A stretch of DNA of 33,408 bases from a virus: the IMG/VR virus record IMGVR_UViG_3300009159_000182, positions 1-33,408 of that record; one strand, 5' to 3'. Of this stretch, positions 78 to 33,408 are shown in pieces. Position 1 is the stretch's first letter. The number at the start of each line of letters is the position of its first letter. A program made the translations under genes and the position numbers. Below the pieces are notes generated by a model. It saw nothing but the letters and a program-made list of their open reading frames with translations, was not told the origin of the DNA and searched no databases.

Positions 78-84
78 CTAAATA
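78..84 (+). promoter_or_regulatory. T4-type late promoter box (CTAAATA)
   Basis: CTAAATA ends 7 nt before the ATG at 92. There is no Shine-Dalgarno sequence in between. The motif matches the late-promoter core of T4-like phages (TATAAATA in T4, CTAAATA reported in cyanophages). Transcription starting about 6 nt downstream would leave almost no leader. Confidence 0.6.
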
Positions 85-91
85 CTTGACT

Positions 92-706: not shown

Positions 707-708
707 AA

Positions 709-1496: not shown

Positions 1497-1514
1497 AATC
1501 TGGTGTCTATAAAT

Positions 1515-2218: not shown

Positions 2219-2219
2219 A

Positions 2220-2849: not shown

Positions 2850-2860
2850 TTAATTTTCCT

Positions 2861-3217: not shown

Positions 3218-3226
3218 TATTATTCC

Positions 3227-7676: not shown

Positions 7677-7679
7677 ATA
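7672..7679 (+). promoter_or_regulatory. Late promoter box (CATAAATA), 7 nt before a start
   Basis: CATAAATA overlaps the stop codon of the upstream gene and is followed by ATAGACT and the ATG at 7687. No Shine-Dalgarno sequence is present. The spacing equals that at position 78, and GACT precedes the ATG in both cases. Confidence 0.65.
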
Positions 7680-7686
7680 ATAGACT

Positions 7687-8055: not shown

Positions 8056-8056
8056 T

Positions 8057-8893
8057 ATGAACGTCATCGTAGTATATCCAGGGCGTTTTGAACCACCACA
8101 TCGTGGACATAAATCCAGCTATAATGAGCTGCAAAAAGCATTTCCCGGGGCTAAGATACTAATTGCATCCAGTGGCATCACTGCGCCTATAACTCATCCT
8201 TTTAAGTTTGAAGACAAGGTAGCACTATTTACCAAACTGGGTGTTCCTGCTACCAACATAATTTTGTCCAAGAGCCCGTACCAAATGCCTGAATTACGTG
8301 CAGATGTAAGTGAAGAAGAACAGGCTAATATTGTATTGATATTTGCTGTTAGCAAGAAAGACCAACAAAACAATCCCGAAGCAGGCAAGAAGCCGCGTTT
8401 TGCATACGGTCTTAAAAAGAATGGGGAAAAGAGTTATATGCAACCCTACCCAGGCAGTATCAAACAATGTCTGCCTATGACAAAACATGCGTATGTTTAC
8501 GAAACAGAAACCAAGACATTTAAAGTACTGGGCAAAGACGCTGAAGGCGCTACCGCTATACGCGATGCATATACCAACGGCAATGAAAATGAACGCGAGC
8601 ATATCATACATGATTTGTATGGTAAAGACGACCACGCAATTAAAGACCTATTCGATCAGAGATTGGGCGTTGCCAAAAAGCTCAAGGATATCGTAATACA
8701 AGAACCTAACATAGACGGAGATGTTATTGAACAACCCATGCCCGTAGTACGCACAGAAAGCAAAGCTAAACTGGCTAAACTATTGGAATCAGCATTATCA
8801 GCCGAACGTGCAGCAAACCGCAGTTATACCACCATCAAAGAAGACTTAGCCCCCAACTATGTAGACGAAAAAACAGGCAGAAAATTTTACTAG
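8057..8893 (+). CDS. Cytidylyltransferase-like nucleotidyltransferase
   Basis: A protein of 278 aa. The N-terminus has the HxGH superfamily signature: a first beta strand, then GRFEPPHRGH (residues about 9-18), where PPHRGH is the nucleotide-binding element. Members transfer CMP or AMP onto phosphate esters, e.g. nicotinamide or phosphopantetheine adenylyltransferases. The usual C-terminal ISSTxxR motif is not obvious. About 100 extra C-terminal residues are helical and charged, ending EDLAPNYVDEKTGRKFY. It starts 1 nt after the previous stop in a late cluster, so a virion-associated role is possible. The substrate is unknown. Confidence 0.8.
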   Translation: MNVIVVYPGRFEPPHRGHKSSYNELQKAFPGAKILIASSGITAPITHPFKFEDKVALFTKLGVPATNIILSKSPYQMPELRADVSEEEQANIVLIFAVSKKDQQNNPEAGKKPRFAYGLKKNGEKSYMQPYPGSIKQCLPMTKHAYVYETETKTFKVLGKDAEGATAIRDAYTNGNENEREHIIHDLYGKDDHAIKDLFDQRLGVAKKLKDIVIQEPNIDGDVIEQPMPVVRTESKAKLAKLLESALSAERAANRSYTTIKEDLAPNYVDEKTGRKFY

Positions 8894-8907
8894 CCCTGAC
8901 AAGTAGT

Positions 8908-8914
8908 GTAAATA
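8908..8914 (+). promoter_or_regulatory. Late promoter box (GTAAATA) with normal leader
   Basis: GTAAATA lies 24 nt before the ATG at 8939, and the leader contains AGAGGAAACC as a ribosome site. It contrasts with the boxes that sit directly on a start codon. Confidence 0.5.
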
Positions 8915-8938
8915 GTTTACACTTTATAAGAGGAAACC

Positions 8939-9865
8939 ATGGCATCAACCCAAGCAGCATCACCCGAAGTTCAAGCTACACCAACCGCACCAGCAGCACC
9001 CGTAGACCAAGCACCACAACAAGGACAAGTACAGGTCAACGTTGATTTTCTTAAGACCACCCGTGTTCACATCTGCATGCCCTGCTACGGTGGTATGCTT
9101 ACTGAATCTACTTTCATGAGTTATATTAAATGGGCCAATACAGCTCGTCAATTAGGCATTGACTGGACTATGGAAACAATGACAAACGAATCATTGATTT
9201 CTCGTGCTCGTAACACACTTACAGCTAAGTTCCTTTCAAATCCAGACTCAACGCACTTAATGTTTATCGATGCTGATATTGGCTGGGAGCCATGGCATTT
9301 GTTAGTCCTGTTGAATCGTGACGTGGACGTTATCGGAGGATTATATCCTATGAAATCACTGCCGGTCAAATGGTGTGTCAACGGATTTGACGGTGCAGAA
9401 GAAGGCCCAGATGGCTTACAAGAAGTTACCAAAACTGGCACTGGCTTCTTGCTAATGAAGCGTGGTGTATTTGAGAAATTAAATGCTCACCCTGCGGTTA
9501 AGCCATTCAATAGTGATATCGGCCTTCCCCCAGAGTTAAACGTTTACATGAAAACCTACTTTGATACAGCAGTTCGTGAGAACCGTTACTACTCAGAAGA
9601 TTGGACATTCTGCGAAAATTGGCGTGATTTAGGTGGTAAAGTATGGGTTGACAAACGTATATTATTACGTCACACTGGTACATACGTGTTTGACTTTGCT
9701 ACACAAGATCAGTTATACAAAGATCTACATGCGTTAGCCATGCAGAATCAATCTCAATCGGTGGTACAAGCCGCTCCTGTTGTAGCAGATACATCAGCCC
9801 CCCAGGCTCCTGTTGACCCAATAGCAAAAGTAGTGGCAACCAGTAAAGGTAAAAAGAAAAAGTAA
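8939..9865 (+). CDS. GT-A fold glycosyltransferase
   Basis: A protein of 308 aa. Residues 1-35 are a low-complexity Ala/Pro/Gln leader. The catalytic region follows, with MPCYGG, an N-terminal helix, and MFIDADIGW containing the DxD metal/nucleotide-sugar motif. A segment near the end of the fold (YYSEDWTFCENWRDLGGKVWVD) resembles the acceptor/base region of GT2-like enzymes. The C-terminus is a Pro/Ala linker ending in lysines. It probably transfers a sugar to a virion protein, DNA or host glycan; the target is unknown. A strong ribosome site precedes it and a terminator follows it. Confidence 0.85.
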   Translation: MASTQAASPEVQATPTAPAAPVDQAPQQGQVQVNVDFLKTTRVHICMPCYGGMLTESTFMSYIKWANTARQLGIDWTMETMTNESLISRARNTLTAKFLSNPDSTHLMFIDADIGWEPWHLLVLLNRDVDVIGGLYPMKSLPVKWCVNGFDGAEEGPDGLQEVTKTGTGFLLMKRGVFEKLNAHPAVKPFNSDIGLPPELNVYMKTYFDTAVRENRYYSEDWTFCENWRDLGGKVWVDKRILLRHTGTYVFDFATQDQLYKDLHALAMQNQSQSVVQAAPVVADTSAPQAPVDPIAKVVATSKGKKKK

Positions 9866-9941: not shown

Positions 9942-12401
9942 ATGAATATTGAACAACTTGAATCTTATAACTTAGCAGATGCTGTTAAGTTTCATGACCG
10001 TCTGAACCCATTACTATGGGATAGTCGTGAGAATCTGCACCCTGAAATACACAGTAAGTTGTTGAAAATTGCTGATGATTTTCGTGATTCGCTGGGCGTA
10101 AATGATTTAGAGCTTAAAGATATCACTATATCAGGTAGTAATGCTGCTTATTCCTATACTCCACATTCAGACATAGATTTACATTTAATTGTTGATTTAT
10201 CCGGGGTAGATCACCCAGAAATCTACAGAGAATTATTTGATGCTAAAAAAGCCATTTACAACAATGAGCATACAATTACAATCAAGGGAATTCCAGTGGA
10301 ATTGTATGTGCAGGATGCTGCTCAAGATCATCATAGTCAGGGCATTTATAGTATAATAAACAATGACTGGATACAGATCCCACGTAGAGTACAAGCTGAT
10401 ATCGACGATATGAGTGTGCGTAGCAAATACGAAGATTTAAGTAACCGTATTGACAAAGTTGTCAAAACTGAAAATCTTACTAAGATGGATGAACTTGCAG
10501 CAAAAATTAAAAAAATGCGACAAGAGGGATTAGCGGAACACGGTGAGTTTGGTCCCGAGAATTTAGTATTTAAAATGTTACGCAATCAGGGTCACATTGA
10601 AGAATTACGAACAGCACGCCATGAAGCAAAAAGTAAAGAACTAAGTCTAAAAGAACGTGTCGGCAAACCTAAAACAATATATGGATACGGTCGAGACTTT
10701 GTGGATGAGGTTGCACTAACACCCGGTGGTGTGTCAGATCATACTAAAATGTTTGTGGAAAAAGAAGAAGCTCCGGTTAACTCACAACAGGAAATTATTG
10801 AAGATTTCATTGATTTTTGTTCGGCACAGTTATCATTAGCAAAAGAAATCAACTTACGAATTCGACGTGACCCCGAGTGGTCTGTACGCAACAAGACATT
10901 TGGTAGATATGACCAACAGACCAATGAGTTAAATGTTGGGGTCAGTGGTCGTCATACCATGGACATACTGCGTACCGTAGCACATGAGCTGGTGCATCAA
11001 CGACAAAATGAAACTCAGGAAATGCCGCCGGATGCTGGAGCGGATGGTAGCGAATATGAAAATGAAGCCAATGCGCGGGCCGCTGTATTGATGCGTAAGT
11101 ATGGTAAGCTACATCCTGAATTATTCGTACCATCTGAATTGAATGAAGAATTAGAAAAGCCAGTTACTGCTCATGGTTATATGTACAATCGACAAGATCA
11201 GCGTATAGCATGGACCAAAGAATTTGCTAGTGAGGCGGCGGCCAAGGAATGGGCACGCCGTCGTAATGCTACTTTATTAAGTATTGTTTCCAAACAATTG
11301 GAAGCAGTGGGTAATTTCACTGCCGACCCCCAACAGCAGGCTAGGATGTATCTGCAATACCATACTGGTACGTTTGATCCAGCAACAATGCCCAAATTTT
11401 TGGCAATTAAACCTGGCGTTTCTTTATCCGTACAGCCTCCACCTCCTGGATCTTCTGGCTCGCATGAAGAAACATTGGCATATTTGTCAGCAGCTAATAA
11501 AAAGTTGCCCAAAGAGCTACAAGTTGGGTGGGATGAATTAAAGAATATCGGCGGCGTTAGTAACACAATTAAATTGACCGGTGAACCACATCCTGACAAA
11601 TACAATCCAGCCACTGATCCTACCGTTGCCAATCCAGTTGCTACACCGTTCAAGGTACAGGAAAATGGGTTAGGTGGCTTGGCGGAAGGCTTAAATGAAG
11701 CATCCGGCTACATTCCAACCGAAGCAGAAAGCGCAAAACAAATAAACTGGATTAAGCCCAACTTTGATTTTGAATGGCACGAAGTTGAAGAACAATCTAA
11801 GATGAAGCAAGTACCGCCCGAAGTAAGAAAATATTATCAAAAACATTTTCCCAACAAAGCCGCATGGCTTGCCGCAGTTCAAAATGGTAGAGCAGTTGTT
11901 GTGCCGCCTGATCATTCGTATGAGATTAGAAATGCCCCCCATGATAAGAAATCACTACTGCAAGTCTTGGCTCCTACTTCTCATGAAGGCGCTATTGGAC
12001 CTGCCAAACAGAAAAGGGTCAACGCACTATTTTCTAAAGGTGGTCCGATAGAAATGCCTATCATACTAAAAACAAGTAAAGGTTTGTGGTTAATTGGCGG
12101 TAAGACCAGACTAGGAACCGCAAATTACATCAAAGGAATTCCTGCTAAAGTATGGATGATTGACGGTGACCAAGATGTGACGAAAGGTTTAAAAGAATCA
12201 TCCGGTTATATTCCAACCGCAGCAGAAGCCAATGATCCACGTTTTGAGATGGCATTGACAGTTGATGTCAGACCAGGCGCATTAGGCAAGGCTGCTAACA
12301 GTTTCCTATTGAATACAGATAGGCAGGGTCATCCTCAAGAACTACGTCCTGATGGATTGGTCAATCGTATGATGGTGGAATATTTAGAGTTTAAACAATG
12401 A
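9942..12401 (+). CDS. Multidomain protein: nucleotidyltransferase, HEXXH peptidase-like, ParB-like
   Basis: A protein of 819 aa from the ATG at 9942 (an in-frame TTG at 9927 lies before it, next to the terminator). At about residues 65-85 there is a pol-beta-type nucleotidyltransferase motif: GS followed by SDIDLHLIVDL. At about 348-352 HELVH is a zinc-peptidase motif, with ENEANARA about 30 residues later as a possible third ligand. At about 700-735 the segment IILKTSKGLWLIGGKTRLGTA resembles ParB/sulfiredoxin-type domains. Two copies of a GYIPT-containing linker separate the last domains. A late box precedes it. It may be a virion-packaged or injected polyprotein-like effector; this is inference. 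Confidence 0.8.
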   Translation: MNIEQLESYNLADAVKFHDRLNPLLWDSRENLHPEIHSKLLKIADDFRDSLGVNDLELKDITISGSNAAYSYTPHSDIDLHLIVDLSGVDHPEIYRELFDAKKAIYNNEHTITIKGIPVELYVQDAAQDHHSQGIYSIINNDWIQIPRRVQADIDDMSVRSKYEDLSNRIDKVVKTENLTKMDELAAKIKKMRQEGLAEHGEFGPENLVFKMLRNQGHIEELRTARHEAKSKELSLKERVGKPKTIYGYGRDFVDEVALTPGGVSDHTKMFVEKEEAPVNSQQEIIEDFIDFCSAQLSLAKEINLRIRRDPEWSVRNKTFGRYDQQTNELNVGVSGRHTMDILRTVAHELVHQRQNETQEMPPDAGADGSEYENEANARAAVLMRKYGKLHPELFVPSELNEELEKPVTAHGYMYNRQDQRIAWTKEFASEAAAKEWARRRNATLLSIVSKQLEAVGNFTADPQQQARMYLQYHTGTFDPATMPKFLAIKPGVSLSVQPPPPGSSGSHEETLAYLSAANKKLPKELQVGWDELKNIGGVSNTIKLTGEPHPDKYNPATDPTVANPVATPFKVQENGLGGLAEGLNEASGYIPTEAESAKQINWIKPNFDFEWHEVEEQSKMKQVPPEVRKYYQKHFPNKAAWLAAVQNGRAVVVPPDHSYEIRNAPHDKKSLLQVLAPTSHEGAIGPAKQKRVNALFSKGGPIEMPIILKTSKGLWLIGGKTRLGTANYIKGIPAKVWMIDGDQDVTKGLKESSGYIPTAAEANDPRFEMALTVDVRPGALGKAANSFLLNTDRQGHPQELRPDGLVNRMMVEYLEFKQ

Positions 12402-13087
12402 TACTCAGTGACTTTACCCCCGCCCGAAGAGCACGATTTAGCCGTGAACAACTAGACGGATTACTAGCCGACCTTTGCGGAATGATTATTGATGGTCAAA
12501 AAGATAATTCGGATTTCTATGGCATGGTAGCAGCAGCAGTAATAGATCCCATGGGTCGAGTAGCAACAGGCGTAAACTATCTATATGGCAATGAACGCAT
12601 ACATGCCGAACGAGCTGCCGTAGACAACTATGAAAGAGAATACGGTGAGCTACCAGCGGGGTCTGTAGTGGTCACTACACTAAGCCCCTGTAATCAAGAT
12701 ACAGGTGACGTTAAAGAAACAACCTGTACCAGCGAATTAAATGAAAAACATGTTAAGATGGCCTATTGCGGATATCGTGATCCCACGCAGCATGATGAAC
12801 ACAACGACTTCGCTATTGTCATCACAGAAAATAACAAGCTACGGCATTTATGCAAAAAGTTTGCTGATACATTTTTGAAAAAAGATGTAGATGAAGCAGG
12901 TATAGGTATCAACGTATACGAAAACTTTGCTGATGGTAAAGGTCCAGGCCGCCCCGGTGACAGCGTTAGACACGGTATACCCAAACATGCTACAAAAGCA
13001 GAATTAACTAAAGCAAGCCACGCAAAAGGTCGTAAAGGGCAGTTAGCTCGTTGGCAGCTGAATATGCGAAATGGACATAAGAAATAA
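12398..13087 (+). CDS. Deaminase-fold protein (cytidine deaminase-like)
   Basis: A protein of 229 aa that starts within the previous stop codon (4-nt overlap). The zinc-dependent deaminase signature is present: HAE at residues 69-71 and SPC with Cys98. The second Cys ligand would be Cys110, giving PC-x11-C instead of the usual PC-x2-4-C. A basic C-terminal region (from about 185) carries GDSVRHGIPK and ends with QLARWQLNMRNGHKK. It may act on free nucleotides or on nucleic acid, but the widened zinc site makes activity uncertain. The nearest classical families are dCMP and RibD-type deaminases. Confidence 0.75.
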   Translation: MILSDFTPARRARFSREQLDGLLADLCGMIIDGQKDNSDFYGMVAAAVIDPMGRVATGVNYLYGNERIHAERAAVDNYEREYGELPAGSVVVTTLSPCNQDTGDVKETTCTSELNEKHVKMAYCGYRDPTQHDEHNDFAIVITENNKLRHLCKKFADTFLKKDVDEAGIGINVYENFADGKGPGRPGDSVRHGIPKHATKAELTKASHAKGRKGQLARWQLNMRNGHKK

Positions 13088-13390: not shown

Positions 13391-13593
13391 GATTGTATGA
13401 ATTTGTGGGACTCAAGGAAGATGCATCGGCAGGCGCCACTAGCTCAGGTAGCATTGCCACTGTGTCTATGCCCATGGGTACAGTTCAGCGTAGAATTAGT
13501 CCAGATAATTTATTTTTAGGTAAATATACTACTGAGTTGAATTCAACGCCTAATACGCCGGATTCATATAAACAATACAAACGGAAAAAGTAA
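13387..13593 (+). CDS. Small protein with Ser/Thr/Pro-rich tail, unknown function
   Basis: A protein of 68 aa overlapping the preceding gene (ATGA) and sharing its last base with the next start (TAATG). The N-terminus MRLYEFVGLKEDAS resembles short leader segments seen in other proteins of this cluster (for example MNLFNLFEND at 14725). The rest is low complexity and ends in KRKK. It may be a linker or scaffold-type peptide. No function can be assigned. Confidence 0.65.
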   Translation: MRLYEFVGLKEDASAGATSSGSIATVSMPMGTVQRRISPDNLFLGKYTTELNSTPNTPDSYKQYKRKK

Positions 13594-14033
13594 TGCTAAC
13601 AGACTTGATGAAAATATTATTGGCTAGTGACTTCAGTTACTACTTGAAGGCGCACTTTTTTCACTGGAACGTGGAAGGTAAGGACTTTTACCAATATCAC
13701 CAATTCCTACAGGCAGTATACGAAGACGCTTATGAAGCTGTGGATACTATCGCAGAATTTATTCGTACGCTGGATGAATACGCCCCGGGTAGCTTATCAC
13801 GCTACCAAGAATTAACACATATTCAAGATCAAACTAAAGTGCCACGTGCCCAATTGATGTTGGAAGAATTACTTCATGATTCACACATTATGGTTGAACT
13901 TCTTAATGAATGTTTTGCTGCTGCTACTCAAGAAAACAAGCAAGACATAGCAAATTTTATCGCTGAAAGATTAACTGCTACCAACAAGTTTATCTGGATG
14001 CTGTCAAGTTTTTTGAGAGAAGCTAGAGCATAA
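13593..14033 (+). CDS. Dps-like ferritin-family protein
   Basis: A protein of 146 aa, predicted four-helix bundle. The Dps signature is clear: HWNVEG at 24-29, then H36, D51 and E55. These match in spacing E. coli Dps ferroxidase residues H51, H63, D78 and E82. The fifth position (Asp67 in E. coli) is Gln40 here. Dps dodecamers oxidise and store iron and can coat DNA. The protein lacks the Lys-rich N-terminal tail used for DNA binding. It lies in a chain of overlapping genes in the late region, suggesting late synthesis or virion association. Confidence 0.85.
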   Translation: MLTDLMKILLASDFSYYLKAHFFHWNVEGKDFYQYHQFLQAVYEDAYEAVDTIAEFIRTLDEYAPGSLSRYQELTHIQDQTKVPRAQLMLEELLHDSHIMVELLNECFAAATQENKQDIANFIAERLTATNKFIWMLSSFLREARA

Positions 14034-21808: not shown

Positions 21809-22735
21809 ATGACAGTAACGGAATTAGTACATTTTAAAAATCAACTGGATAAGCTGTCGGTTCCGCCTATACTAGAGAAGGCGGATATCGCTTTACAAGA
21901 ATTTTCTCATGTAATGTCCGTGCATTCGTCTACTGATGTCGATAAGATTATCAACAGCCATGCAGCTATCAAAGAAGCATTTAATTCTTTTGACAATGAA
22001 TTAGCTGAGATTAAACGCAACTTAAAAAGCAACATTGAAGAAGCGGAACGAGTATTATTTCAACAAAGCTATAGAGCATACCATGATGAAAGTATCTACG
22101 ATGCGCACCATATTCTAGGTAGGCGTTGGCAACCCGATATTAATCTTGAATTGTTTTATTCTAGAGTTAAGAAAACAGTGGATTGGCATTATCCCGCTAT
22201 GATTTTCCGCCCGGGATTTGCCAACTTCATTGATGATATGGTGGGATACGATCCCTTATATCTCGTTGAAGTTAGCCATCAATTTTTAGAACCAGTATTA
22301 ACGAAATTTAACCCGCAATATCAGAGAAGACTGCGTCCATATATTATTAAAGAACACACTGACGATCCGCTGCTAGACCGATTGCCCAACGAACAGTTTG
22401 GTGTAATTGTAGGGTGTCACTTTTTTAACTTTAGGCCCCTGGAAGTGATTAAGAAATACCTGTCGGAAATTTATACCAAATTAAGACCAGGTGGTGTGTT
22501 TATGCTGACGTTCAATGACTGCGATCGTTGGCCAGCAGTAAAATTAGTGGAAGAAAAGAAAGACGGCAGTTATACACCCGGTAGTTTAGTTTTTGAATTG
22601 GCAAAATCCATGGGGTATACTATAGATTATTGCTGGCATGATGAAGGTCCACAGACCTGGCTTGAATTACGCAAACCCGGTATGTTATCATCGCTGAGAG
22701 GCGGACAGACTTTGGCAAAAATAATTTCAAAATAG
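21809..22735 (+). CDS. Methyltransferase-like protein with degenerate SAM site
   Basis: A protein of 308 aa directly following the polymerase stop. Residues 1-95 are a coiled-coil-like helical region. The second half looks like a class I methyltransferase: a strand with an acidic residue (YLVEVS, about 151-156), a strand GVIVGCHFFNF (198-208), and the common LRPGGVFMLTF element (225-235). The glycine-rich SAM-binding motif I is not visible, so it may be an inactive relative or a binding protein. Its place between polymerase and clamp suggests a role near DNA replication or modification. Confidence 0.65.
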   Translation: MTVTELVHFKNQLDKLSVPPILEKADIALQEFSHVMSVHSSTDVDKIINSHAAIKEAFNSFDNELAEIKRNLKSNIEEAERVLFQQSYRAYHDESIYDAHHILGRRWQPDINLELFYSRVKKTVDWHYPAMIFRPGFANFIDDMVGYDPLYLVEVSHQFLEPVLTKFNPQYQRRLRPYIIKEHTDDPLLDRLPNEQFGVIVGCHFFNFRPLEVIKKYLSEIYTKLRPGGVFMLTFNDCDRWPAVKLVEEKKDGSYTPGSLVFELAKSMGYTIDYCWHDEGPQTWLELRKPGMLSSLRGGQTLAKIISK

Positions 22736-22765: not shown

Positions 22766-22789
22766 ACATTTATTATAAAAGGAAATAAA

Positions 22790-23512
22790 ATGCGAGATCA
22801 TCTATTAGATTTAATCAGTCACATTCATGCATTGGGCGGCATCGACCAGCTAAGAATTTCAGGTACAGACACAGAAACAAATTTCAACGCTATTGCTGAC
22901 GATCGTTCGGTGGTAATTGACGGTATGTTTATTAATCCCGTAGCAGACTTCATGGGCACATTTGGTATGCCCAATTTGAAGAAACTTAGTATTCTATTGA
23001 ACTTAAAAGAATACCAAGAAGGTGCTAAGTTAACTATGAGCCGCAAAGATACCGGAGCCCCGGATCAACTGACTTTTGTAAACACCAACGGTGACTTTAA
23101 AAACAGCTATCGTTTTATGGCAGAAGCCCTGGCTAATGAAAAGATCAAACCTCCCAAGTTTAAAGACGTTACCTGGAACGTTGAATTTGAACCTAGTGCT
23201 GCTGCTATTCTGCGTTTAAAGATGCAAGCGTCAGCTAACGAAGAAGAAAATACATTCCAAGCTAAAGTTGAAGATGGGGATCTGAAGTTTTACTTTGGTG
23301 ACCATAGCTCACACGCTGGTAACTTTGTATTCCAACCTGATGTAGGTGGTGATATCAAACGTGCATGGCAATGGCCCGTTAAGACAGTTATTGGCATTTT
23401 GGATTTAGCTGGTGACAAAATTATGCGTATTAGCGATGGCGGTGCTACACAAATCATTGTTAACTCTGGTTTGGCAATCTATACTTTCATTATTCCAGCG
23501 CAGACAAAGTAA
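22790..23512 (+). CDS. 45: Sliding clamp (T4 gp45-like processivity factor)
   Basis: A protein of 240 aa (T4 gp45 has 228). The order of strands and helices fits the two-domain clamp fold. Recognisable segments are MGTFGMPNLKKLSILLNL in domain 1 and VKTVIGILDLAG...MRISDGGATQIIV in domain 2. The ATG at 22790 is chosen because AAAGGAAAT lies 4 nt upstream; a frame reaching back to a TTG at 22736 would run through the promoter. The clamp tethers the polymerase and, in T4, also activates late transcription. The next gene starts only 3 nt after its stop. Confidence 0.88.
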   Translation: MRDHLLDLISHIHALGGIDQLRISGTDTETNFNAIADDRSVVIDGMFINPVADFMGTFGMPNLKKLSILLNLKEYQEGAKLTMSRKDTGAPDQLTFVNTNGDFKNSYRFMAEALANEKIKPPKFKDVTWNVEFEPSAAAILRLKMQASANEEENTFQAKVEDGDLKFYFGDHSSHAGNFVFQPDVGGDIKRAWQWPVKTVIGILDLAGDKIMRISDGGATQIIVNSGLAIYTFIIPAQTK

Positions 23513-23515
23513 TCA

Positions 23516-25114
23516 ATGACTCAAGATAACCTTACCGCCAAACAACTGGACTATGCGATTTTTCTTCCTGCATTGTCGGGTTTTTACTCCAGCTATATAG
23601 GCAAACAACGTGGCGGCGTTCACGTTGAACCTGCTCGTATGCCCGCCAATATCCAGGATATGGAGATGCTTAATTGGCTCAACGACCAAAAGGCATTGTT
23701 CCCATATAAATGGAGTCTGTACTCCGCGGGGCATGCCAATTTAGATATCAATAAACAGGACTGGGCCGAAGACATGGTGCGTAATCGTGATCCCAATACA
23801 TTCCTGTTGGGTGATTCAGGCGGGTTCCAGATCGGCAAAGGTCGATGGGAAGGTGACTGGAAAAATCCTGCATGTCCCAAAGCAAAACAAAAACGTGAGC
23901 AAGTTCTTGCCTGGATGGATGCGTATATGGACTATGGCATGGTACTGGATGTGCCTACATGGATTACCAACTTTCCCAATAGTCGCAAGGTCACTGGTAT
24001 CAATACATATCAAGACGCTGTTGATGCTACGTATATTAATAATGAATATTTTATTGCCAATCGTTCGGGCAAATGTAAATTTTTAAATGTACTACAGGGT
24101 GGCAATCAAACAGACGCACACAAGTGGTATAACACCATGAAGAAGTATTGTGATCCAAAACAATATCCCGGCAAACATTTTAATGGCTGGGCACTGGGCG
24201 GACAACATACGTCTGATATTGAACTGGTATTAAAAAGAATAGTTACACTTAGGTTTGAAGGATTGCTTGAAGAAGGTCTACATGACTGGATGCACTTCCT
24301 GGGTATTGGTAGACTTGAGTGGGCGTTGATGTTGACCGACATTCAACGTGCTGTTCGTAAATATCACAATCCAAACTTTACTGTTAGCTTTGACTGTGCA
24401 AGTCCATTCTTGGCTACTGCCAATGGACAAGTATATCATCAAATTGATATTCAGGATAGGAAGAAGTGGTGCTATCGCATGAGTCCTATTGTTGACAATA
24501 AAAAGTACGCGACTGACACACGCACATATCGTGATGCGGTGCTACAAGATGGCCTAATAAAACACTTTGACGAGAGCCCAATGAGTGCAAACTTCCTGGT
24601 TAAAGATATCTGTTACTATAAAGATGGAGTTCCTAAAACTCCGGCTGAATTGGGAACGGAAACTTTTGATCCAGCTAATCCAGCACATTACACAGTGATG
24701 CCTGATCTAAATAAAATAGGCAAGATAGGTAGAACAAGTTGGGACTCGTTTAGCTATGCATTGCTAATGGGACACAATGTCTGGACTCATATTGAATCTG
24801 TGCAGCGTTCCAATCGTGAGTATGATGCTGGAATTTGTCCCACTATGCTGGTAGAAGAAAAGTTTGAACAGCTATATTTCAGAGATTTAGTAGATGCCAT
24901 ATTTTCTATTGACAATTTAGAAGATGCTCTTGCTTTCATTGACTATCATGATAAATTTTGGCAACGGTTCGTTGGCACTAAAGGCGCTACTGGAAAGAAA
25001 ACTGTTAATTCACGTACTATGTTTGATGCGTTATTTGAAATCCCCGATTATACGCAAGTAGATGAATCTGAACTGGATGAGTCTAAACTTGAAGATCTGG
25101 AAAAATCCGCATGA
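23516..25114 (+). CDS. dpdA: DpdA/TGT-family deazaguanine transglycosylase
   Basis: A protein of 532 aa. It has the residues that define tRNA-guanine transglycosylases: LGDSGGFQ (Asp100), LDVP (Asp145), VLQGG (Gln194), WALGG (224-229), FLGIG (261-265) and FDCASPFLATANG with the probable nucleophile Asp293. The Cys-x-Cys-x2-Cys...His zinc site of bacterial TGT is not visible. Phage DpdA proteins of this fold insert 7-deazaguanine bases into DNA. Downstream folE and a queD-like gene support that role. It overlaps the next gene by 4 nt. A tRNA-directed role cannot be excluded. Confidence 0.85.
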   Translation: MTQDNLTAKQLDYAIFLPALSGFYSSYIGKQRGGVHVEPARMPANIQDMEMLNWLNDQKALFPYKWSLYSAGHANLDINKQDWAEDMVRNRDPNTFLLGDSGGFQIGKGRWEGDWKNPACPKAKQKREQVLAWMDAYMDYGMVLDVPTWITNFPNSRKVTGINTYQDAVDATYINNEYFIANRSGKCKFLNVLQGGNQTDAHKWYNTMKKYCDPKQYPGKHFNGWALGGQHTSDIELVLKRIVTLRFEGLLEEGLHDWMHFLGIGRLEWALMLTDIQRAVRKYHNPNFTVSFDCASPFLATANGQVYHQIDIQDRKKWCYRMSPIVDNKKYATDTRTYRDAVLQDGLIKHFDESPMSANFLVKDICYYKDGVPKTPAELGTETFDPANPAHYTVMPDLNKIGKIGRTSWDSFSYALLMGHNVWTHIESVQRSNREYDAGICPTMLVEEKFEQLYFRDLVDAIFSIDNLEDALAFIDYHDKFWQRFVGTKGATGKKTVNSRTMFDALFEIPDYTQVDESELDESKLEDLEKSA

Positions 25115-26022
25115 AGAGTCTTGTTATAGGTATGGGCATCGGCCAGTTATATCTTCATGTATTAGTTGAGTTAGGTCACGAAGTTGTTACTGTTGATAGT
25201 GATGCTGCTAAATCAGCCGATTATACTAACGTAAAATCAGCATTACAGGAACACGCATATTTTGATACAGTAAACATTTGTACTCCTAACTTTACTCATT
25301 TGGAGATAGCAAGGGCTGTAGCTAAACATGCCAGGATCGTGTTCATTGAAAAACCAGGGTTAGAAACTTCAGCACAATGGAAACATCTATGTAATGAGTT
25401 TCCCGACACACGTTTTATGATGGTTAAGAATAATCAATATCGTGATAATATTAATGTATTAGCACAACTAGCACATAAGGCAACGATTATTAATCTAACA
25501 TGGAACAACAACGATCGTGTTCCTAACCCTGGCACTTGGTTTACCACGTATGATTTATCGTTTGGTGGAGTAAGTAGAGATTTAATTCCACACTTATTAA
25601 GTTTATTCCAATCGCTGTCAGGCTTTACTCATGATCAAGCTAAACTAGATTACGAAACAGTGGATCAACGTTGGCAATTAAAAGACTTAATCAAAACTGA
25701 CTATGGCATTGTAAATCCTAATGGAGTATATGATGTCGAAGATCATATAGAATTGCATTTTAATGACGCACAAGGCCGTAAGTGGTTTATTGAAAGTGAC
25801 TGGCGTACACTAAATGGTGACGATCGCAGTATTCTAATGATATTTGCGGATGGGTCTCGTTATTATTATGAATTAGGCTTGTGTCCTGAAGATGCGTATA
25901 AGCGTATGATTGATACTGCTGTTAAAATGACGGACGTCGACGCATACTGGCAACATCAATATGAGTTGGATATGTGGATACATAAAACAATTGAATCGCT
26001 TGATTTAGTGGGGGCAACATGA
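25111..26022 (+). CDS. Gfo/Idh/MocA-family dehydrogenase
   Basis: A protein of 303 aa. The N-terminal Rossmann domain has GMGIGQ (7-12) with Asp at the end of strand 2 (VTVDSD). NICTPNFTHLE (55-65) and the family's EKP motif (80-82, catalytic Lys81) follow. The C-terminal domain includes GGVSRDLIPH (152-161), matching the conserved GG...D...H segment. These enzymes oxidise or reduce sugar or inositol hydroxyls with NAD(P). It overlaps both neighbours by 4 nt, next to an MDR dehydrogenase, a pairing that also occurs in bacterial surface-sugar loci. Confidence 0.85.
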   Translation: MKSLVIGMGIGQLYLHVLVELGHEVVTVDSDAAKSADYTNVKSALQEHAYFDTVNICTPNFTHLEIARAVAKHARIVFIEKPGLETSAQWKHLCNEFPDTRFMMVKNNQYRDNINVLAQLAHKATIINLTWNNNDRVPNPGTWFTTYDLSFGGVSRDLIPHLLSLFQSLSGFTHDQAKLDYETVDQRWQLKDLIKTDYGIVNPNGVYDVEDHIELHFNDAQGRKWFIESDWRTLNGDDRSILMIFADGSRYYYELGLCPEDAYKRMIDTAVKMTDVDAYWQHQYELDMWIHKTIESLDLVGAT

Positions 26023-26924
26023 GAACAAGAATTTTATATACAGATGGGAAGGGTAAGTTTACGGAAACAGGTTGGAATAAACCCGATCCCACCGCAGATG
26101 AGATTGAAGTCAAAGCCGTTATGACCGGAGTATGCCGCAGCGACATTGACATGATGACTGGGGGCTTTGGTCCATTACCCTTGGAAATGAGTGGGCACGA
26201 AGGTCTGGGCAAGGTTACTCGTGTTGGGGCAAATGTACTGGACGTACGGGTAGGCGACCTAGTCTCCACTCGCGGCGAGCCAGCATATTCCGACTACTAC
26301 AATGTTCGGCAGGGAGAGTATGTATCGGTACCCGAGGCACATCCTCGATACATTATTGAGCCAGTGGCCTGTGGGTATAACCTCATCATGCAGACATATG
26401 ACGAACTGCTGGCACGACATGGCGATGGCAGTCGATTGTTAATCCTGGGCAGTGGATTTTTGGCTTGGGTAGCATATAACTCATTAATCATAGAAGGATT
26501 GCGATTTGAGGTAGATGTTGTGGGCAGTAGCAACACCGCAATATGGAAAGATCGATTACAGGATAAACCCGTAGGGCAGTACGATGTTGTTATTGACCTA
26601 AGTGATAAGACTACTGTATTTGATAGCGATATATTGAATCTTGGTGCATTAGTAGTCATGGGCACACAGAAACAAGTCACAACTGATTTTAGTCAACTGC
26701 TATGGAAAGCATGTACCATGGTATTTCCCAGTCCCCGCAATCCGAGATTCCATTTAGTCATGGCTCGTGCGGAGTTTTGGGTAAGTAAAGGTAACTTAGA
26801 TGTTGACTACTTCTGGACGCAAGCGTATACTAGAGATAGTGAGTGGCAACAGGCTTTTGACGATGGCTTAAATCGTCCCAAAAATTATAGCCGTGGTTAT
26901 ATTGTATGGCAGGATAACAAATGA
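26019..26924 (+). CDS. Zinc-type medium-chain dehydrogenase (MDR)
   Basis: A protein of 301 aa. The catalytic zinc site is visible: GVCRSD (Cys39), SGHEGLG (His60, Glu61) and IEPVACG (Glu114 and Cys118 region). A Rossmann segment LLILGSGFLAW follows at about 140-150. The four-Cys structural zinc loop is missing and the protein is about 40 residues shorter than usual alcohol dehydrogenases. It probably oxidises a polyol or sugar with NAD(P). It is coupled by 4-nt overlaps to the Gfo/Idh/MocA gene upstream and the T-fold gene downstream. Confidence 0.85.
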   Translation: MRTRILYTDGKGKFTETGWNKPDPTADEIEVKAVMTGVCRSDIDMMTGGFGPLPLEMSGHEGLGKVTRVGANVLDVRVGDLVSTRGEPAYSDYYNVRQGEYVSVPEAHPRYIIEPVACGYNLIMQTYDELLARHGDGSRLLILGSGFLAWVAYNSLIIEGLRFEVDVVGSSNTAIWKDRLQDKPVGQYDVVIDLSDKTTVFDSDILNLGALVVMGTQKQVTTDFSQLLWKACTMVFPSPRNPRFHLVMARAEFWVSKGNLDVDYFWTQAYTRDSEWQQAFDDGLNRPKNYSRGYIVWQDNK

Positions 26925-27379
26925 TTAATCAACAACGACAACAAGCATTAGCAGAAGAAGCTATCCGTATTATGTATAAAGCAGAACGTAAAGTATGGGT
27001 AACCTTTCGCAAAGAAGGTATTCACAAGTATCCCGCAGCAGCAACAGATCCCTTACTAGCAACAGGTGATGAATATGATGTGTCATTTCTAGCTAATGAG
27101 CATAGACATATTTTCCACTTCCGTGTTTGGATTGATGTATTTCATAACGATCGTGATATTGAGTTTATTCAGTTTAAACGATGGTTAGAAAATCTTTACA
27201 AAGATGGTATTCTATCATTAGATTATAAATCATGCGAAATGATCGCAGATGATTTATATATTAACATTTCTGCACGTTATCCTAAACGTGCGGTGTGGAT
27301 TGAGGTCTCCGAAGATGGTGAGAACGGATGCCTCATTAAATACGAACTTTCTCGCCCTTCACAAACAGTATTAATTTAA
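26921..27379 (+). CDS. T-fold (PTPS/QueD-like) protein
   Basis: A protein of 152 aa, 4-nt overlap with the MDR gene. The core has HRHIFHFRVWIDV (61-73), IEFIQFKRWLENLY (80-93), SLDYKSCEMIADDL (99-112) and AVWIEVSEDGENG (124-136). The order of an HxH strand, a D/E-F-x-x-K helix, an E-x-I-A helix and a final strand with Glu resembles QueD/PTPS; parts also recall QueF, another T-fold enzyme. No catalytic Cys of either family is in place. It may be a divergent pterin or deazapurine enzyme in the modification operon. The similarity is from visual pattern only. Confidence 0.6.
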   Translation: MINQQRQQALAEEAIRIMYKAERKVWVTFRKEGIHKYPAAATDPLLATGDEYDVSFLANEHRHIFHFRVWIDVFHNDRDIEFIQFKRWLENLYKDGILSLDYKSCEMIADDLYINISARYPKRAVWIEVSEDGENGCLIKYELSRPSQTVLI

Positions 27380-27389
27380 AGGAATTAAA

Positions 27390-27611
27390 ATGGCAAAGTT
27401 GTCTTTCAAGCCTAACGAACGTGCAAATCAAACTCTAGACGATCTCGAGAAGTTTTTAGAATTCTGTAGAGATTATGGGTATCGCTACAACGAGAACGAT
27501 TTATATAATTTTAAAGCGTATGCTTGGCAACAATACAACAAATTTGTTCAGGGTAAAAATGCCAAGAACATGTGGGCCGAAGATGCACGCAGATTTGGGA
27601 AAATAAATTGA
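27390..27611 (+). CDS. Small conserved protein, unknown function
   Basis: A protein of 73 aa with a good ribosome site (AAAGGAATTAAA). It is highly helical, with charged and aromatic residues (LDDLEKFLEFCRDYGYRY, NFKAYAWQQYNKFVQGKN). No known motif. It is inside the operon: 10 nt after the T-fold gene and overlapping the glycosyltransferase start by 4 nt (TTGA). It could be a small regulator or adaptor. Confidence 0.75.
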   Translation: MAKLSFKPNERANQTLDDLEKFLEFCRDYGYRYNENDLYNFKAYAWQQYNKFVQGKNAKNMWAEDARRFGKIN

Positions 27612-28663
27612 CAGTTTTTTTAGTTGATCTAGAAGCAGTCTCAACCCGGTATACCGGGCAGTGGAAGACTCATCTTCCACTGTTACTTGAAAAGGAAGGA
27701 CATAATGTCCATATTATTGACGGACCTACTGATATCCCTAATGCTACAACTCCTGGTGCTTTTCTTAATTTTGGGGGCACCAACATTTACAAAGCTGCAC
27801 AAGTTGAAGCTATGGGTAGACTCTTCACCCAGGGTGAAGTTAAGCCTGGCGATCATTTTATCTTTACAGACGCTTGGCATCCTGGTATTATTAACCTTAG
27901 ATACATGAGTGAGTTACTGAAAATTCCAGTAACTACACACGGTCTATGGCATGCAGGTAGCTATGATCCTGAAGATTTTCTAGGTCGGTTAATCGGCGAT
28001 AAACCCTGGGTTAGGCATGCGGAAAAAAGTTTCTTTTTTGCGTTTGATCATAACTATTTTGCCACTGATTTTCATATCAAGATGTTTGCCAAGAACTTAT
28101 TTGATGCAGTGGACAATGGTGCAAACCCTTACGTAACACGAACTGGGTGGCCCATGGAATATATGGATGAACTACTTACCCCATACAAGAATCTAAAGAA
28201 GCGTAATCTTGTATTATTTCCACATCGCATTGCCCAGGAAAAACAAGTGGAAATATTTCGGGATCTAGCATCTAAATTACCACAGTATGAATTCATTGTG
28301 TGTCAGGATCAAGAACTAACTAAACATGAATACCATACGTTATTAGGTGAAGCAAAAGTAGTATTCAGTGCTAACCTACAGGAAACACTGGGTATCAGTT
28401 GTTACGAGGGTGCAGTTGTTAATGCTATCCCCATGGTACCTGATAGACTTAGTTATAGAGAAATGTATTATGATGAATTTAGATATGATTCTACATTTAC
28501 TCAAAATTATAAATTTTATGAAAAAAGCAGACCGTATCTAGCTAAAAAACTCATGTCATACATGAGCAACTATGAATCATTGCTGCCTTTACTGGAACAA
28601 CAAGCAGCCAAATTGTCCAAGGATTTCTTTTCGGCCGGTAATTTACTATTAAATATAAGATGA
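27608..28663 (+). CDS. GT-B glycosyltransferase (GT4-like)
   Basis: A protein of 351 aa from a TTG start at 27608 that overlaps the previous stop as TTGA. The N-terminal half is an acceptor-type Rossmann domain with FTDAWHPG and TTHGLWHAG. The C-terminal half holds the donor-binding signature: VLFPHRIAQEKQ, then ETLGISCYEG (about 259-268), a version of the E-x7-E motif, and IPMVPDRLSYREMY. It probably transfers a sugar from a nucleotide donor. Its place among modification and sugar-redox genes suggests DNA or surface-glycan glycosylation. The acceptor is unknown. Confidence 0.8.
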   Translation: MTVFLVDLEAVSTRYTGQWKTHLPLLLEKEGHNVHIIDGPTDIPNATTPGAFLNFGGTNIYKAAQVEAMGRLFTQGEVKPGDHFIFTDAWHPGIINLRYMSELLKIPVTTHGLWHAGSYDPEDFLGRLIGDKPWVRHAEKSFFFAFDHNYFATDFHIKMFAKNLFDAVDNGANPYVTRTGWPMEYMDELLTPYKNLKKRNLVLFPHRIAQEKQVEIFRDLASKLPQYEFIVCQDQELTKHEYHTLLGEAKVVFSANLQETLGISCYEGAVVNAIPMVPDRLSYREMYYDEFRYDSTFTQNYKFYEKSRPYLAKKLMSYMSNYESLLPLLEQQAAKLSKDFFSAGNLLLNIR

Positions 28664-29370
28664 AAATTTTAGTATGTGGTGCCTCAGTAGTAATGCCTGA
28701 CCTGTCAGCCTCATGGACTCAACGCACTTGGGTACATTATTTACAACAAAAATTAAACTGTGAGATCGTAAATATAGCACGAGCAGGATGTGGAAACCAG
28801 TATATTCACGATGCAGTAATCGCAGAGGTTACTGAAAGGCCATATGATTTAGTTTTAGTATCTTGGAATATTGCAAATCGAGTAGAATTTAGAACTCATC
28901 AAAAACTACCAATAACAGACTGGATTAGAAAAGGAAAAAATACTAATCCACACACCGAATATATGCAGTCAGAATGGATATGGCCACATACTGCTGACAA
29001 TATAATGCCTTCTGAAGAAGCGGCGGAAAATAAAAATGAATTATTCCGACGTCGATTTCTCACTATTCCAACCTATGAAATCAATCATCAGATAATGTTA
29101 ACCCAAGCATTGTCACTTCAGTCTACACTTAAATCCTACGGTATACCATATACCTTTGTCTGGTACCGAACGCTGTTACGGCTCAAACAGTTTAAAAATT
29201 ATTACAATAAAATTGACTGGAATTTCGTGCATCCTGATAGTCTTTTTAGACAGGCCAAAAACAAGAAGATGTGGGATGACAAATCTCTACATCCTACTGA
29301 TGAAGCGTATAGATGGTATGCCGATGAGATGTACAAGTTCCTTAATGACAGGAATCTAATAAAGCCCTAG
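28660..29370 (+). CDS. SGNH-hydrolase-like protein
   Basis: A protein of 236 aa coupled to the glycosyltransferase by a 4-nt overlap. It shows a degenerate set of SGNH blocks: GAS with Ser9 near the N-terminus, ARAGCGNQ (40-47), SWN with Asn70, and DDKSLHPTDEAY (about 207-218) with the Asp-x-x-x-His type block V. Such enzymes remove or transfer acyl groups from sugars or lipids. The 3' end overlaps the end of the opposing ligase gene by 29 bp, so the two meet tail to tail. Confidence 0.75.
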   Translation: MKILVCGASVVMPDLSASWTQRTWVHYLQQKLNCEIVNIARAGCGNQYIHDAVIAEVTERPYDLVLVSWNIANRVEFRTHQKLPITDWIRKGKNTNPHTEYMQSEWIWPHTADNIMPSEEAAENKNELFRRRFLTIPTYEINHQIMLTQALSLQSTLKSYGIPYTFVWYRTLLRLKQFKNYYNKIDWNFVHPDSLFRQAKNKKMWDDKSLHPTDEAYRWYADEMYKFLNDRNLIKP

Positions 29371-30421
29371 ATATTTTTCCTGCTGGGCTAAGTGGAATAC
29401 TATCAACACACTTGAGTACTGCTGGTTTGCAATGTTTACCAAGGCTGATCAAAAAGTTCTTGATAGTATCTTCATCGCATGTACCTACATATAGACACTT
29501 AACATGATCTGTACCAAATACCACACATTCCTGCATACCCGGAATGTTCTGTAGTAACTGTCGTTCGATACTCACAGGATTAATTTTAGAACCCTTGACG
29601 TTAATTTGATCACGACTACGACCCAGTATACGATAGTAACCCATTTCATCTTGGTCAGCTAGGTCTCCTGTATCGTACCAATCACCATGACAAATATTAA
29701 AACCCTTGATCATCAAATGACCATTTTCAATTTTAGCTTCTATGCCATCAGGCAATCCTACTGTGCCAACTCGTTGTGGGCCGGCAAGTGGATTAGTGAA
29801 ACAGTGACTCATTGCTTCTGTCATACCAAACGCTTCTACTATAGGAACATTAAACTTTGCGCTTAATTTGTGATATAAATCGTGTGACATAGGAGCACTG
29901 GCAGAACGTATAAATCTTAAATTGTCAAAATTTAATTCAGCAATAACTCTTAGTACATCAGGAATGGCAGTTATAAAAGTTGGCTTAGTAGAGGGAAAGG
30001 TTTTAATGTCTTTCATAGTAACGTAGGTAGTTTCGCATCCTGCTAATTGCGCCGCCCAGTAAAAACCCTGCCCATGCGCATGCCATAAGCTCATGATGCT
30101 GGTATATCTATCGTTAGCTGTCAAGTTGTATGATCTAACAATAGTAGCAGCCATGTTGTTTAGATGTGCTTGTGTAAAGCTACAAAACTTACTATCTCCT
30201 GTGGTGCCTGATGTATACCAAAGTACTCTTTCGTTAGGATAGTCATTACCATTTCTAACTTTTTCTTGATCTCGAGTGATGTATAAACTCCAGTCGGAAT
30301 TTTCCAATAGGTATCGGTTCCTAGCCTCAGGGGCATTAGGATTTATGATCATTATCGAATGATCTTTTAACTGGGGAATAAAATCTTGTGGATTGTCCAC
30401 ACATAAGACGGCACGTTTCAT
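29342..30421 (-). CDS. Short ANL-superfamily acyl-adenylate ligase
   Basis: A protein of 359 aa from the ATG at 30421, which lies 5 nt after a consensus late box; a longer in-frame start at 30457 would lie upstream of it. ANL motifs are complete: YTSGTTGDSK (69-78), FGMTEA (198-203), YDTGDL (249-254), GRSRDQINVKG (267-277) and AGKISR with catalytic Lys349. It should activate a carboxylic acid as acyl-AMP and pass it to CoA or another thiol or amine. It is much shorter than typical family members (about 500 aa), missing most of the N-terminal subdomain. It is the only - strand gene outside the lysis cassette. Confidence 0.88.
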   Translation of the reverse strand: MKRAVLCVDNPQDFIPQLKDHSIMIINPNAPEARNRYLLENSDWSLYITRDQEKVRNGNDYPNERVLWYTSGTTGDSKFCSFTQAHLNNMAATIVRSYNLTANDRYTSIMSLWHAHGQGFYWAAQLAGCETTYVTMKDIKTFPSTKPTFITAIPDVLRVIAELNFDNLRFIRSASAPMSHDLYHKLSAKFNVPIVEAFGMTEAMSHCFTNPLAGPQRVGTVGLPDGIEAKIENGHLMIKGFNICHGDWYDTGDLADQDEMGYYRILGRSRDQINVKGSKINPVSIERQLLQNIPGMQECVVFGTDHVKCLYVGTCDEDTIKNFLISLGKHCKPAVLKCVDSIPLSPAGKISRALLDSCH

Positions 30422-30426
30422 GCAGA

Positions 30427-30434
30427 TATTTATA
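30427..30434 (-). promoter_or_regulatory. Consensus T4 late promoter (TATAAATA)
   Basis: A perfect TATAAATA on the minus strand is followed by TCTGC and the ligase ATG at 30421. No ribosome site lies between. It is the best match to the T4 late-promoter consensus in the window. Confidence 0.8.
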
Positions 30435-30506
30435 TAGCCATAATGGTAGCGTATCAATTTATGGTTAAGTTATAATAGTGAATGACAAATGAAATTACCA
30501 TAAACT

Positions 30507-30953: not shown

Positions 30954-31646
30954 ATGGCGGGATACTTAGGTGACAGCATTCGTCGCAGAATGCAAGCAGA
31001 TGGTAAGAGATTTTGGGCCGGCGACAACATCAGTGACTACGTTACTGAAGAAGATAAAAGGATTCTAATTAACGAAGCCACAGAGGCGTTCGAAACTGTA
31101 CTAGAAAGTCTATTGATCGACATTGACGCTGATCCCAATAGTCAAGGCACAGCGCATAGATTGGCCAAAATGTATTTTAACGAAATTATGGCAGGCAGAT
31201 ATGAGCCTGCCCCAGATTGTACAGCGTTTCCAAATGATTCGGAGAATAGATATGAAGGTATGTTGGTCGTGCGCAGTGAGTTGCGTAGTATGTGCAGTCA
31301 CCACCATCAGCCTGTTACTGGTGTTGCCTACATTGGAATCCTTGCCGCAAATAAACTTATCGGGCTATCTAAGTATACTAGGATTGCTCAGTGGTGTGCT
31401 CGCCGTGGTACTCTGCAGGAAGAGCTCTGTAACGACATCGCCCGAGAAATAATGCGAGCAACCGACAGTGAGGATGTGGGTGTTTATATTCAAGCCATAC
31501 ACGGCTGCTGCGAAAATCGCGGAATTATGGCACACAGTAGTTTAACACAGACTACAGTATTGAAAGGTGCGTTCAAGGAACACATGGATACAAAGAAGGA
31601 ATTCTTTGATAATATTAAACTACAACAAGACTTTGCCCCACGATAG
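30954..31646 (+). CDS. folE: GTP cyclohydrolase I
   Basis: A protein of 230 aa that converts GTP to dihydroneopterin triphosphate, the first step to folates and to preQ0. Visible motifs are GTAHRLAKMY (65-74), SMCSHHHQP (112-120) with zinc ligands Cys114 and His117, IGLSKYTRIAQW (136-147), and AIHGCCENRG (181-190) with His183 and Cys185. All residues equivalent to the E. coli zinc and catalytic set are present. In phages with a TGT/DpdA-type enzyme, FolE usually feeds 7-deazaguanine synthesis. A queD-like gene lies about 1.5 kb downstream; queE and queC are not in the window. Confidence 0.95.
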   Translation: MAGYLGDSIRRRMQADGKRFWAGDNISDYVTEEDKRILINEATEAFETVLESLLIDIDADPNSQGTAHRLAKMYFNEIMAGRYEPAPDCTAFPNDSENRYEGMLVVRSELRSMCSHHHQPVTGVAYIGILAANKLIGLSKYTRIAQWCARRGTLQEELCNDIAREIMRATDSEDVGVYIQAIHGCCENRGIMAHSSLTQTTVLKGAFKEHMDTKKEFFDNIKLQQDFAPR

Positions 31647-33099: not shown

Positions 33100-33408
33100 A
33101 TGGCAAATAACCCCCACCAGCAAGCACTAAGTGATTACTTCGATGCTCGCATCAATCATTATCATCACACAAAATCTGGTAACACAGTAGGGCCAGTCTT
33201 GCAAAAAAGTCTAGCAGATAACGTAGAGCAGGCATTGAGTAGCGTGCCATCAACTGTGCAATACAAGTACACCAGTACAAAAGAATATCACGACGCTTTT
33301 CCCTGCGCCTACAGACAGTGGCGAGCAGATAGCCACTGTAATTTAATACATGGCTACAGCTTTAGTATGAAGTTTTACTTTGGCACCAACGACCTGGATG
33401 TACGCAAC
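33100..33408 (+). CDS. queD: QueD/PTPS-like protein (3' end outside window)
   Basis: The first 103 residues are visible; the frame runs off the window. HCNLIHGYSFSMKFYF (79-94) corresponds to the Cys-x-x-x-HGH-x-Y core of 6-carboxytetrahydropterin synthase, with the probable catalytic Cys80. The second zinc His is Tyr86 (HGY for HGH) and the first zinc His of the FxAxH motif appears as Tyr71. An N-terminal extension of about 60 residues is present. QueD makes the preQ0 precursor from the FolE product, linking this gene to folE and the transglycosylase. The altered zinc ligands leave activity uncertain. Confidence 0.75.
   Translation, partial: MANNPHQQALSDYFDARINHYHHTKSGNTVGPVLQKSLADNVEQALSSVPSTVQYKYTSTKEYHDAFPCAYRQWRADSHCNLIHGYSFSMKFYFGTNDLDVRN

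Follow-up and report, generated by a model that had tools for sequence, protein, structure and literature searches.

A conserved phage gene cassette linking a TGT/DpdA-type transglycosylase to a glycosyltransferase, and its predicted role in sugar-bearing 7-deazaguanine modification of DNA

Results

Organisation of the locus

The present study deals with an operon of seven genes in the IMG/VR virus record IMGVR_UViG_3300009159_000182, all 33,408 bases of which were analysed and are here called the window; it is probably a piece of a bigger genome. The operon codes for a transglycosylase of the type of tRNA-guanine transglycosylases and DpdA (TGT), a Gfo/Idh/MocA oxidoreductase (GFO), a zinc MDR dehydrogenase (MDR), a T-fold-like protein, a small conserved protein, a glycosyltransferase (GT) and an SGNH-like hydrolase (Table 1). 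An original prediction, made from the letters of the sequence, had described these genes as running with 4-nt overlaps and one gap of 10 nt, 3 nt behind a sliding clamp gene, with FolE and a QueD-like protein encoded nearby. All seven open reading frames were found on the + strand where they had been placed; consecutive genes overlap by 4 nt, with the sole exception of a 10-nt gap 5' of the small protein, and 3 nt separate the clamp stop from the transglycosylase start. FolE is encoded as described, and so is the QueD-like protein if it is the QueD N-terminus at the contig end, a protein distinct from the T-fold one. The identity of the clamp follows from the earlier call and from its annotated position in phage Phosso. 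A TTG codon is the most likely start of the GT, because it gives a 4-nt TTGA overlap with the stop of the small-protein gene and an N-terminus (MTVFLVDLEAV) as in its relatives.

Table 1. Genes at and around the operon in the window, and bacterial loci with related genes
Feature	Position	Strand	Basis or remark
Sliding clamp	22784..23512	+	Fixed upstream neighbour of TGT; homologue in 80/83 TGT-bearing loci
TGT/DpdA-type transglycosylase (TGT), 532 aa, new subfamily (sequence and model)	23516..25114	+	AlphaFold2 model, Foldseek, hhalign, motifs
Gfo/Idh/MocA oxidoreductase (GFO), 303 aa	25111..26022	+	PF01408, E 1.3e-7
Zinc MDR dehydrogenase (MDR), 301 aa	26019..26924	+	PF08240, E 4.7e-10
T-fold-like protein, not QueD, 152 aa	26921..27379	+	phrog_17812, E 3e-36
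Small conserved protein, 73 aa	27390..27611	+	Homologues between T-fold and GT genes in most relatives
GT4-type GT-B glycosyltransferase (GT), 351 aa, TTG start	27608..28663	+	AlphaFold2 model, Foldseek, motifs
SGNH-like hydrolase, 236 aa	28660..29370	+	Lipase_GDSL_2, E 0.015, below cut-off
AMP-binding acyl ligase, short	29342..30457	-	PF00501, E 6e-28; convergent neighbour
GTP cyclohydrolase I (FolE), first step of the 7-deazaguanine pathway	30954..31646	+	PF01227, E 1e-38
QueD (6-carboxytetrahydropterin synthase), cut by contig end	33100..33408	+	PF01242, E 1.2e-4 at 33292-33399; SHCNLIHGY motif
TGT-transporter-GT locus, Devosia naphthalenivorans (L184)	6081-9044
TGT-transporter-GT locus, Rhizobiales AFS055504 (L185)	5565-9062
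TGT-transporter-GT locus, Methylobacterium frigidaeris (L186)	3-3428

The transglycosylase and the glycosyltransferase

The family libraries Pfam, PHROGs, PADLOC and NCBIfam gave no match to the window TGT, and a sequence profile search of the PDB returned nothing for it. An AlphaFold2 model built from 17 sequences (pLDDT 78, pTM 0.79) was compared with solved structures by Foldseek, and the best 50 PDB matches listed were all tRNA-guanine transglycosylases (E from 3e-7, probability 1.00). By hhalign the protein aligned with the TGT of Vibrio phage GR7B, which has the zinc site (E 4e-12), and with proteins of the DpdA2 type, that of phage nt-1 among them (E 3e-7); both alignments span the two Asp motifs of the active site. 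The catalytic Asp pair is present in the form of DSGGFQ and a second-Asp motif, the relatives showing DSGGFQ or DSGGYQ plus FDCASP; residues D100SGGFQ, D145, G229 and D293 are invariant among the 17 aligned sequences. The CxCx2C zinc site of the tRNA enzymes is found in none of the window-type sequences and was seen only in the GR7B type (L005, L091, L092). Neither nt-1 nor ACP17 was found by tblastn with the window TGT, which places it outside the DpdA2 subfamily. Judged from motifs and model, it is a TGT/DpdA-type enzyme of a new subfamily that resembles DpdA2 only remotely.

Pfam support for the GT is weak. Its AlphaFold2 model (pLDDT 83, pTM 0.82) matched GT4-type GT-B enzymes such as BshA, GlgM, PglA and MshA in Foldseek, and the donor-site motifs R-x4-K and E-x7-E are present in 136 of 138 full-length relatives. 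On the evidence of fold and motifs it is an intact enzyme of this type.

Conservation of the gene order

Viral contigs were scanned separately with the TGT and the GT; only best hits were kept, so that close relatives are over-represented. The 80 contigs among the best TGT hits have a common order of polymerase, clamp, TGT, (GFO, MDR), a gene here called c2, T-fold, small protein and GT; FolE follows further downstream, 3' of the GT in most relatives. The GT scan gave 80 loci, again best hits, and a TGT lies upstream in 69 of them, the remaining 11 having too little upstream sequence; thus every locus whose upstream sequence is 4.5 kb or longer (69/69) has the TGT ahead of the GT. Both genes occur in 128 viral contigs; clustering these at 95% TGT identity leaves 92 groups, of which 26 have GFO. 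The two genes are co-directional in every one of these contigs and always accompanied by a T-fold gene, and in 125 the TGT stands before the T-fold gene, the small protein and the GT, the T-fold gene preceding the TGT in the other 3. L019 and L095 represent a single contig that was met with twice. Where a viral contig has a TGT and lacks a GT, the contig end is always no more than 3.2 kb from the TGT; related TGTs with no adjacent GT occur in the isolates Vibrio 2.275.O and GR7B. The gene order of the operon is not due to chance, and the conservation around the transglycosylase that the original prediction had proposed to look for is there.

The c2 gene is present by count in 127 of the 128 contigs and is missing from the window and from its near-identical relative L006. 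Its product of 175 amino acids has no Pfam match, and the gene lies directly 5' of the T-fold gene in nearly all relatives (e.g. L065 11556-12083); a homologue is found in Paride (OR805295.1, 123910-124416), and in ACP17 c2 adjoins the DpdA2-type enzyme.

GFO and MDR always occur together (37/37 contigs out of the 128) and never singly. Full-length homologues of each were found in 11 of 50,697 phage records, all of them Arenbergviridae (Pseudomonas jumbo phages) carrying TGT and GT, in which a GFO-MDR-c2 cassette lies 26 kb away from the TGT-GT-T-fold genes. Because the pair accompanies the TGT and GT without adjacency and no other phage record has full-length homologues, both dehydrogenases probably serve the same system. 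Such co-occurrence is strong evidence from gene content, though the 11 records represent one lineage. Other enzymes vary among the neighbours of the relatives: a phosphoribosyltransferase (L081 9178-9735), a short DegT-type aminotransferase (L029 4341-4922), a sulfotransferase-like protein (L044 9078-9665) and an NAD epimerase (L045 1826-2593). This variation suggests several sugar variants of the modification.

Independent lineages and bacterial forms

The GT was found in 20 of the 50,697 phage records, which fall into about six lineages. Each lineage also has a TGT/DpdA-type protein, and the subfamilies of these proteins differ from lineage to lineage; the GT thus keeps a transglycosylase partner while the subfamily of the partner changes. 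In Arenbergviridae, including Paride, the TGT and GT genes overlap. Phosso has its GT between the clamp and FolE genes and its TGT elsewhere in the genome. The GT adjoins a DpdA2-type enzyme in Acidovorax phage ACP17 and Xanthomonas phage X1, and is one small gene away from such an enzyme in Synechococcus phage BUCT-ZZ01. PhiXhv forms one lineage with Erwinia phage Ep032 and has a TGT of the GR7B type; downstream of its GT lies a different Gfo/Idh/MocA protein, and upstream of it are a gene resembling deacetylases and an ORF with a QueC domain. It had been argued beforehand that sugar genes occurring without the transglycosylase would speak against a joint system, and the GT-bearing phage lineages all have a TGT/DpdA-type protein. 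The proposed tie between a DpdA/TGT-type enzyme and the GT and GFO-MDR pair beside 7-deazaguanine genes is therefore upheld: the linkage is conserved, recurs across subfamilies and holds when the genes are unlinked. The GT very probably belongs to the 7-deazaguanine pathway.

Three alphaproteobacterial genomes contain a TGT homologue, a Vut_1/YhhQ-like transporter (the Vut_1 match exceeds the cut-off in one of the three) and then a homologous GT (Table 1). This set is possibly a bacterial or mobile version which imports the base rather than making it. The bacterial GT was sought in 297 genomes of the order of Devosia and found in the starting genome only, from which we infer that the form is rare and probably mobile. 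The Methylobacterium frigidaeris locus also has a T-fold gene. Matches to the GT from Hahella and Nitrospirota (L190, L191) appear to be ordinary GT4 enzymes that are not accompanied by the module, and were set aside. A contig of a Bacillota metagenome-assembled genome (L189 6151-9766) has the genes QueD-QueE-FolE-T-fold-radical SAM-GT together with a 296-amino-acid protein starting MIDLFLDSGAPTLY, which may be a DpdA1-like transglycosylase.

Supply of the base

QueD was found in 14 of 15 related records. QueE, which lies outside the sequence of the window, was found in 12 of the 15 with one query and is also annotated in ACP17 and Phosso. No match to QueC (PF06508) was obtained in seven large viral relatives, Paride, Phosso, ACP17 and BUCT-ZZ01; X1 has one below the cut-off only, and among the GT-bearing records searched only the divergent PhiXhv has a match. 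The window itself, being a fragment, carries no weight on QueC. Since QueD and QueE are present and QueC was not detected, the encoded pathway would end at 7-carboxy-7-deazaguanine (CDG) unless the host supplies QueC, and the gene content suggests that the base probably derives from CDG rather than from preQ0. Of the FolE, QueD, QueE and QueC set which the original prediction had named for known DpdA systems, the first three are encoded in the window or its relatives; QueC is missing from the large relatives, so that a preQ0 or archaeosine-type base is not expected.

The T-fold protein had no match in a PF01242 search, and only weak and unrelated matches in a PDB profile search. It aligned with QueD by hhalign over the C-terminal half only (E 5.5e-5). 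Its His35/61/63 and an SCE motif are invariant, and no QueD-type Cys lies between His35 and His61. The protein is not QueD, as a true QueD is encoded separately in the window and in the same proportion of related records as given above. The T-fold gene lies near FolE in phages with and without the GT, including Cellulophaga phage phiST. It is possible from these features that the protein is a base-processing enzyme, which we suspect to be the CDG decarboxylase DpdL of Cui and colleagues (2023).

The SGNH gene and other neighbours

The original prediction had counted the SGNH hydrolase into the system, and this did not hold. Its Pfam score is below the cut-off, and no full-length homologue was found in phages besides L006. 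The acyl ligase gene, which is convergent with and overlaps the SGNH gene, was likewise seen among the fetched loci only in the window and L006, and both were rejected as parts of the system. The SGNH gene shares the transcript but is lineage-specific and probably not a core part; the two genes could serve a further tailoring step or be unrelated. A methyltransferase-like gene lies between polymerase and clamp in the window (21809-22735) and has homologues in 49 TGT loci. Elsewhere the window encodes a dCMP-deaminase-like protein (12398-13087) and a ferritin/Dps-like protein (13593-14033).

Discussion

The presence of the genes, the folds and catalytic motifs of their products, the conserved linkage and the co-occurrence of the genes where they are unlinked are direct observations. 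Our reading, to which we assign a probability of roughly 0.6, is that the operon serves a hypermodification of phage DNA in a group of large phages from water. FolE, QueD and QueE would make CDG, and the T-fold protein may process it, for example by decarboxylation. The TGT/DpdA-type enzyme would then exchange guanine in the phage DNA for the deazaguanine base, either CDG or 7-deazaguanine, and the GT would move a sugar from a nucleotide-sugar donor onto the inserted base, or onto the base before its insertion. GFO and MDR could be an optional two-enzyme module for oxidation or reduction of the sugar, in which case the sugar variant may differ between related phages. The modified DNA would be protected from host nucleases. 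The idea of a base decorated in DNA by a sugar or acyl group thus stands in part: the transglycosylase, GT, GFO and MDR are tied together and the SGNH enzyme is not, and the modification itself is a prediction.

Several points weigh against this reading. CDG and 7-deazaguanine have no obvious acceptor hydroxyl, and the sequence of the GT reveals neither its donor nor its acceptor. Against solved enzymes the TGT model reaches only modest TM-scores (about 0.4 by query length and 0.55 by target), and homology to TGT by itself does not tell a DNA from a tRNA target. GFO and MDR occur in just 37 of the 128 contigs. The large relative G006 is without detectable QueD and QueE, though its record may be incomplete. 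No nucleoside measurements were found for any phage carrying the GT.

The main rival is that the TGT acts on tRNA and that the GT makes a glycosylated queuosine-like wobble base which tunes the translation of phage mRNA. Glycosylated queuosines are known in animals, and the TGT superfamily is mostly directed at tRNA. A gene for TilS, a tRNA enzyme, is present in MIJ3 of the Arenbergviridae (PMC6892783). We consider it unlikely all the same, as the zinc motif is missing from the window TGT, unlike the GR7B type, and the gene keeps its place next to those of DNA polymerase and clamp. Moreover, the partners of the GT include DpdA2-type enzymes, whose subfamily is tied to the modification of DNA, and QueA, QueG and QueH were not found in the viruses analysed by Hutinet et al. 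(PMC6884629). It is quite improbable that the phages have a plain 7-deazaguanine DNA system in which the target of the GT is another DNA base or a protein. Several phages have the T-fold gene without the GT, so that replacement of the base may occur by itself; against this, few neighbours of the TGT are as constant as the GT, and no enzyme for hydroxymethyl-pyrimidines could be recognised next to the GT.

The original prediction had itself offered, as its alternative, a surface-sugar pathway on the shared transcript. In the form considered here, GT, GFO, MDR and SGNH would make up a pathway for surface sugars or receptor modification, and the transglycosylase on the transcript would be unrelated to it. 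Such gene types do occur in polysaccharide pathways, and the accessory sugar enzymes differ among relatives. This explanation becomes very improbable when it is considered that none of the 69 testable loci has a GT without an upstream TGT, that the TGT-GT pairing recurs with different transglycosylase subfamilies, that GFO and MDR accompany TGT and GT even at a distance of 26 kb, and that the conserved neighbours include no recognisable flippase, polymerase or membrane-bound glycosyltransferase. Least weight is given to a GT that glycosylates a free pterin or deazapurine to a soluble compound while the TGT does something separate. FolE and T-fold proteins are pterin enzymes, and a pterin glucosyltransferase (5zer) is among the structural matches of the GT; it ranks only 32nd, amid generic GT4 enzymes, the GT is accompanied by QueE and a transglycosylase, and the bacterial TGT, transporter and GT modules have no FolE recognised nearby.

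If the hypermodification reading is right, guanine in the virion DNA would be replaced by a sugar-bearing 7-deazaguanine, and glycosylated deazapurines would join known DNA chemistry. It would also give functions to 'hypothetical' genes of Pseudomonas aeruginosa jumbo phages that are in culture, among them PA5oct, MIJ3, Callisto and Paride, and would bear on how such phages withstand restriction and other DNA-targeting defences. We see about even odds that this is a widespread and previously undescribed class of phage DNA hypermodification, in which a modular cassette of transglycosylase, T-fold protein and GT4 enzyme with interchangeable sugar-tailoring enzymes occurs in jumbo phages, in one cyanophage and, sporadically, in bacterial islands. 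No report of glycosylated 7-deazaguanine in phage DNA was found in the open-access literature, which is weak evidence as preprints and most subscription papers lay outside the search, and the passages searched in the papers on MIJ3, Paride and Callisto say nothing of it.

A study by Cui and colleagues in Nucleic Acids Research (2023) reportedly described variants with CDG or 7-deazaguanine involving DpdL, DpdM and DpdN, and to our knowledge it did not include a glycosyl derivative. A pathway of this kind that stops at CDG would fit the missing QueC here. Modification of phage DNA with 7-deazaguanines by DpdA is already known from 9g, CAjan and nt-1 (Hutinet et al. 2019, PMC6884629). Those systems likewise combine an enzyme of the TGT superfamily with FolE, QueD and QueE next to replication genes, and some GT-bearing relatives carry DpdA2, the subfamily of nt-1, in whose DNA 7-deazaguanines have been measured (PMC6884629). 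The present system differs in that QueC is missing from almost all searched genomes with the GT, that the GT, the T-fold protein and the sugar dehydrogenases are added, and that the window TGT is remote from DpdA2. With BshA, GlgM, PglA and MshA the window GT has the GT-B fold and the donor-site motifs in common, whereas identity to them is about 11-17% and its partners here are base-modification genes. The alpha- and beta-glucosyltransferases (alpha-GT and beta-GT) of the T-even phages follow the same logic of a sugar put after replication on a modified base of phage DNA; they lie outside the 50 best structural matches of the GT, and their handle is hydroxymethylcytosine where here it would be a deazaguanine. 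The CmoX/CmoY carboxymethylcytosine system (PMC12783734), which works on cytosine and with an amide ligase instead of a glycosyltransferase, likewise uses a modified base as the handle for hypermodification.

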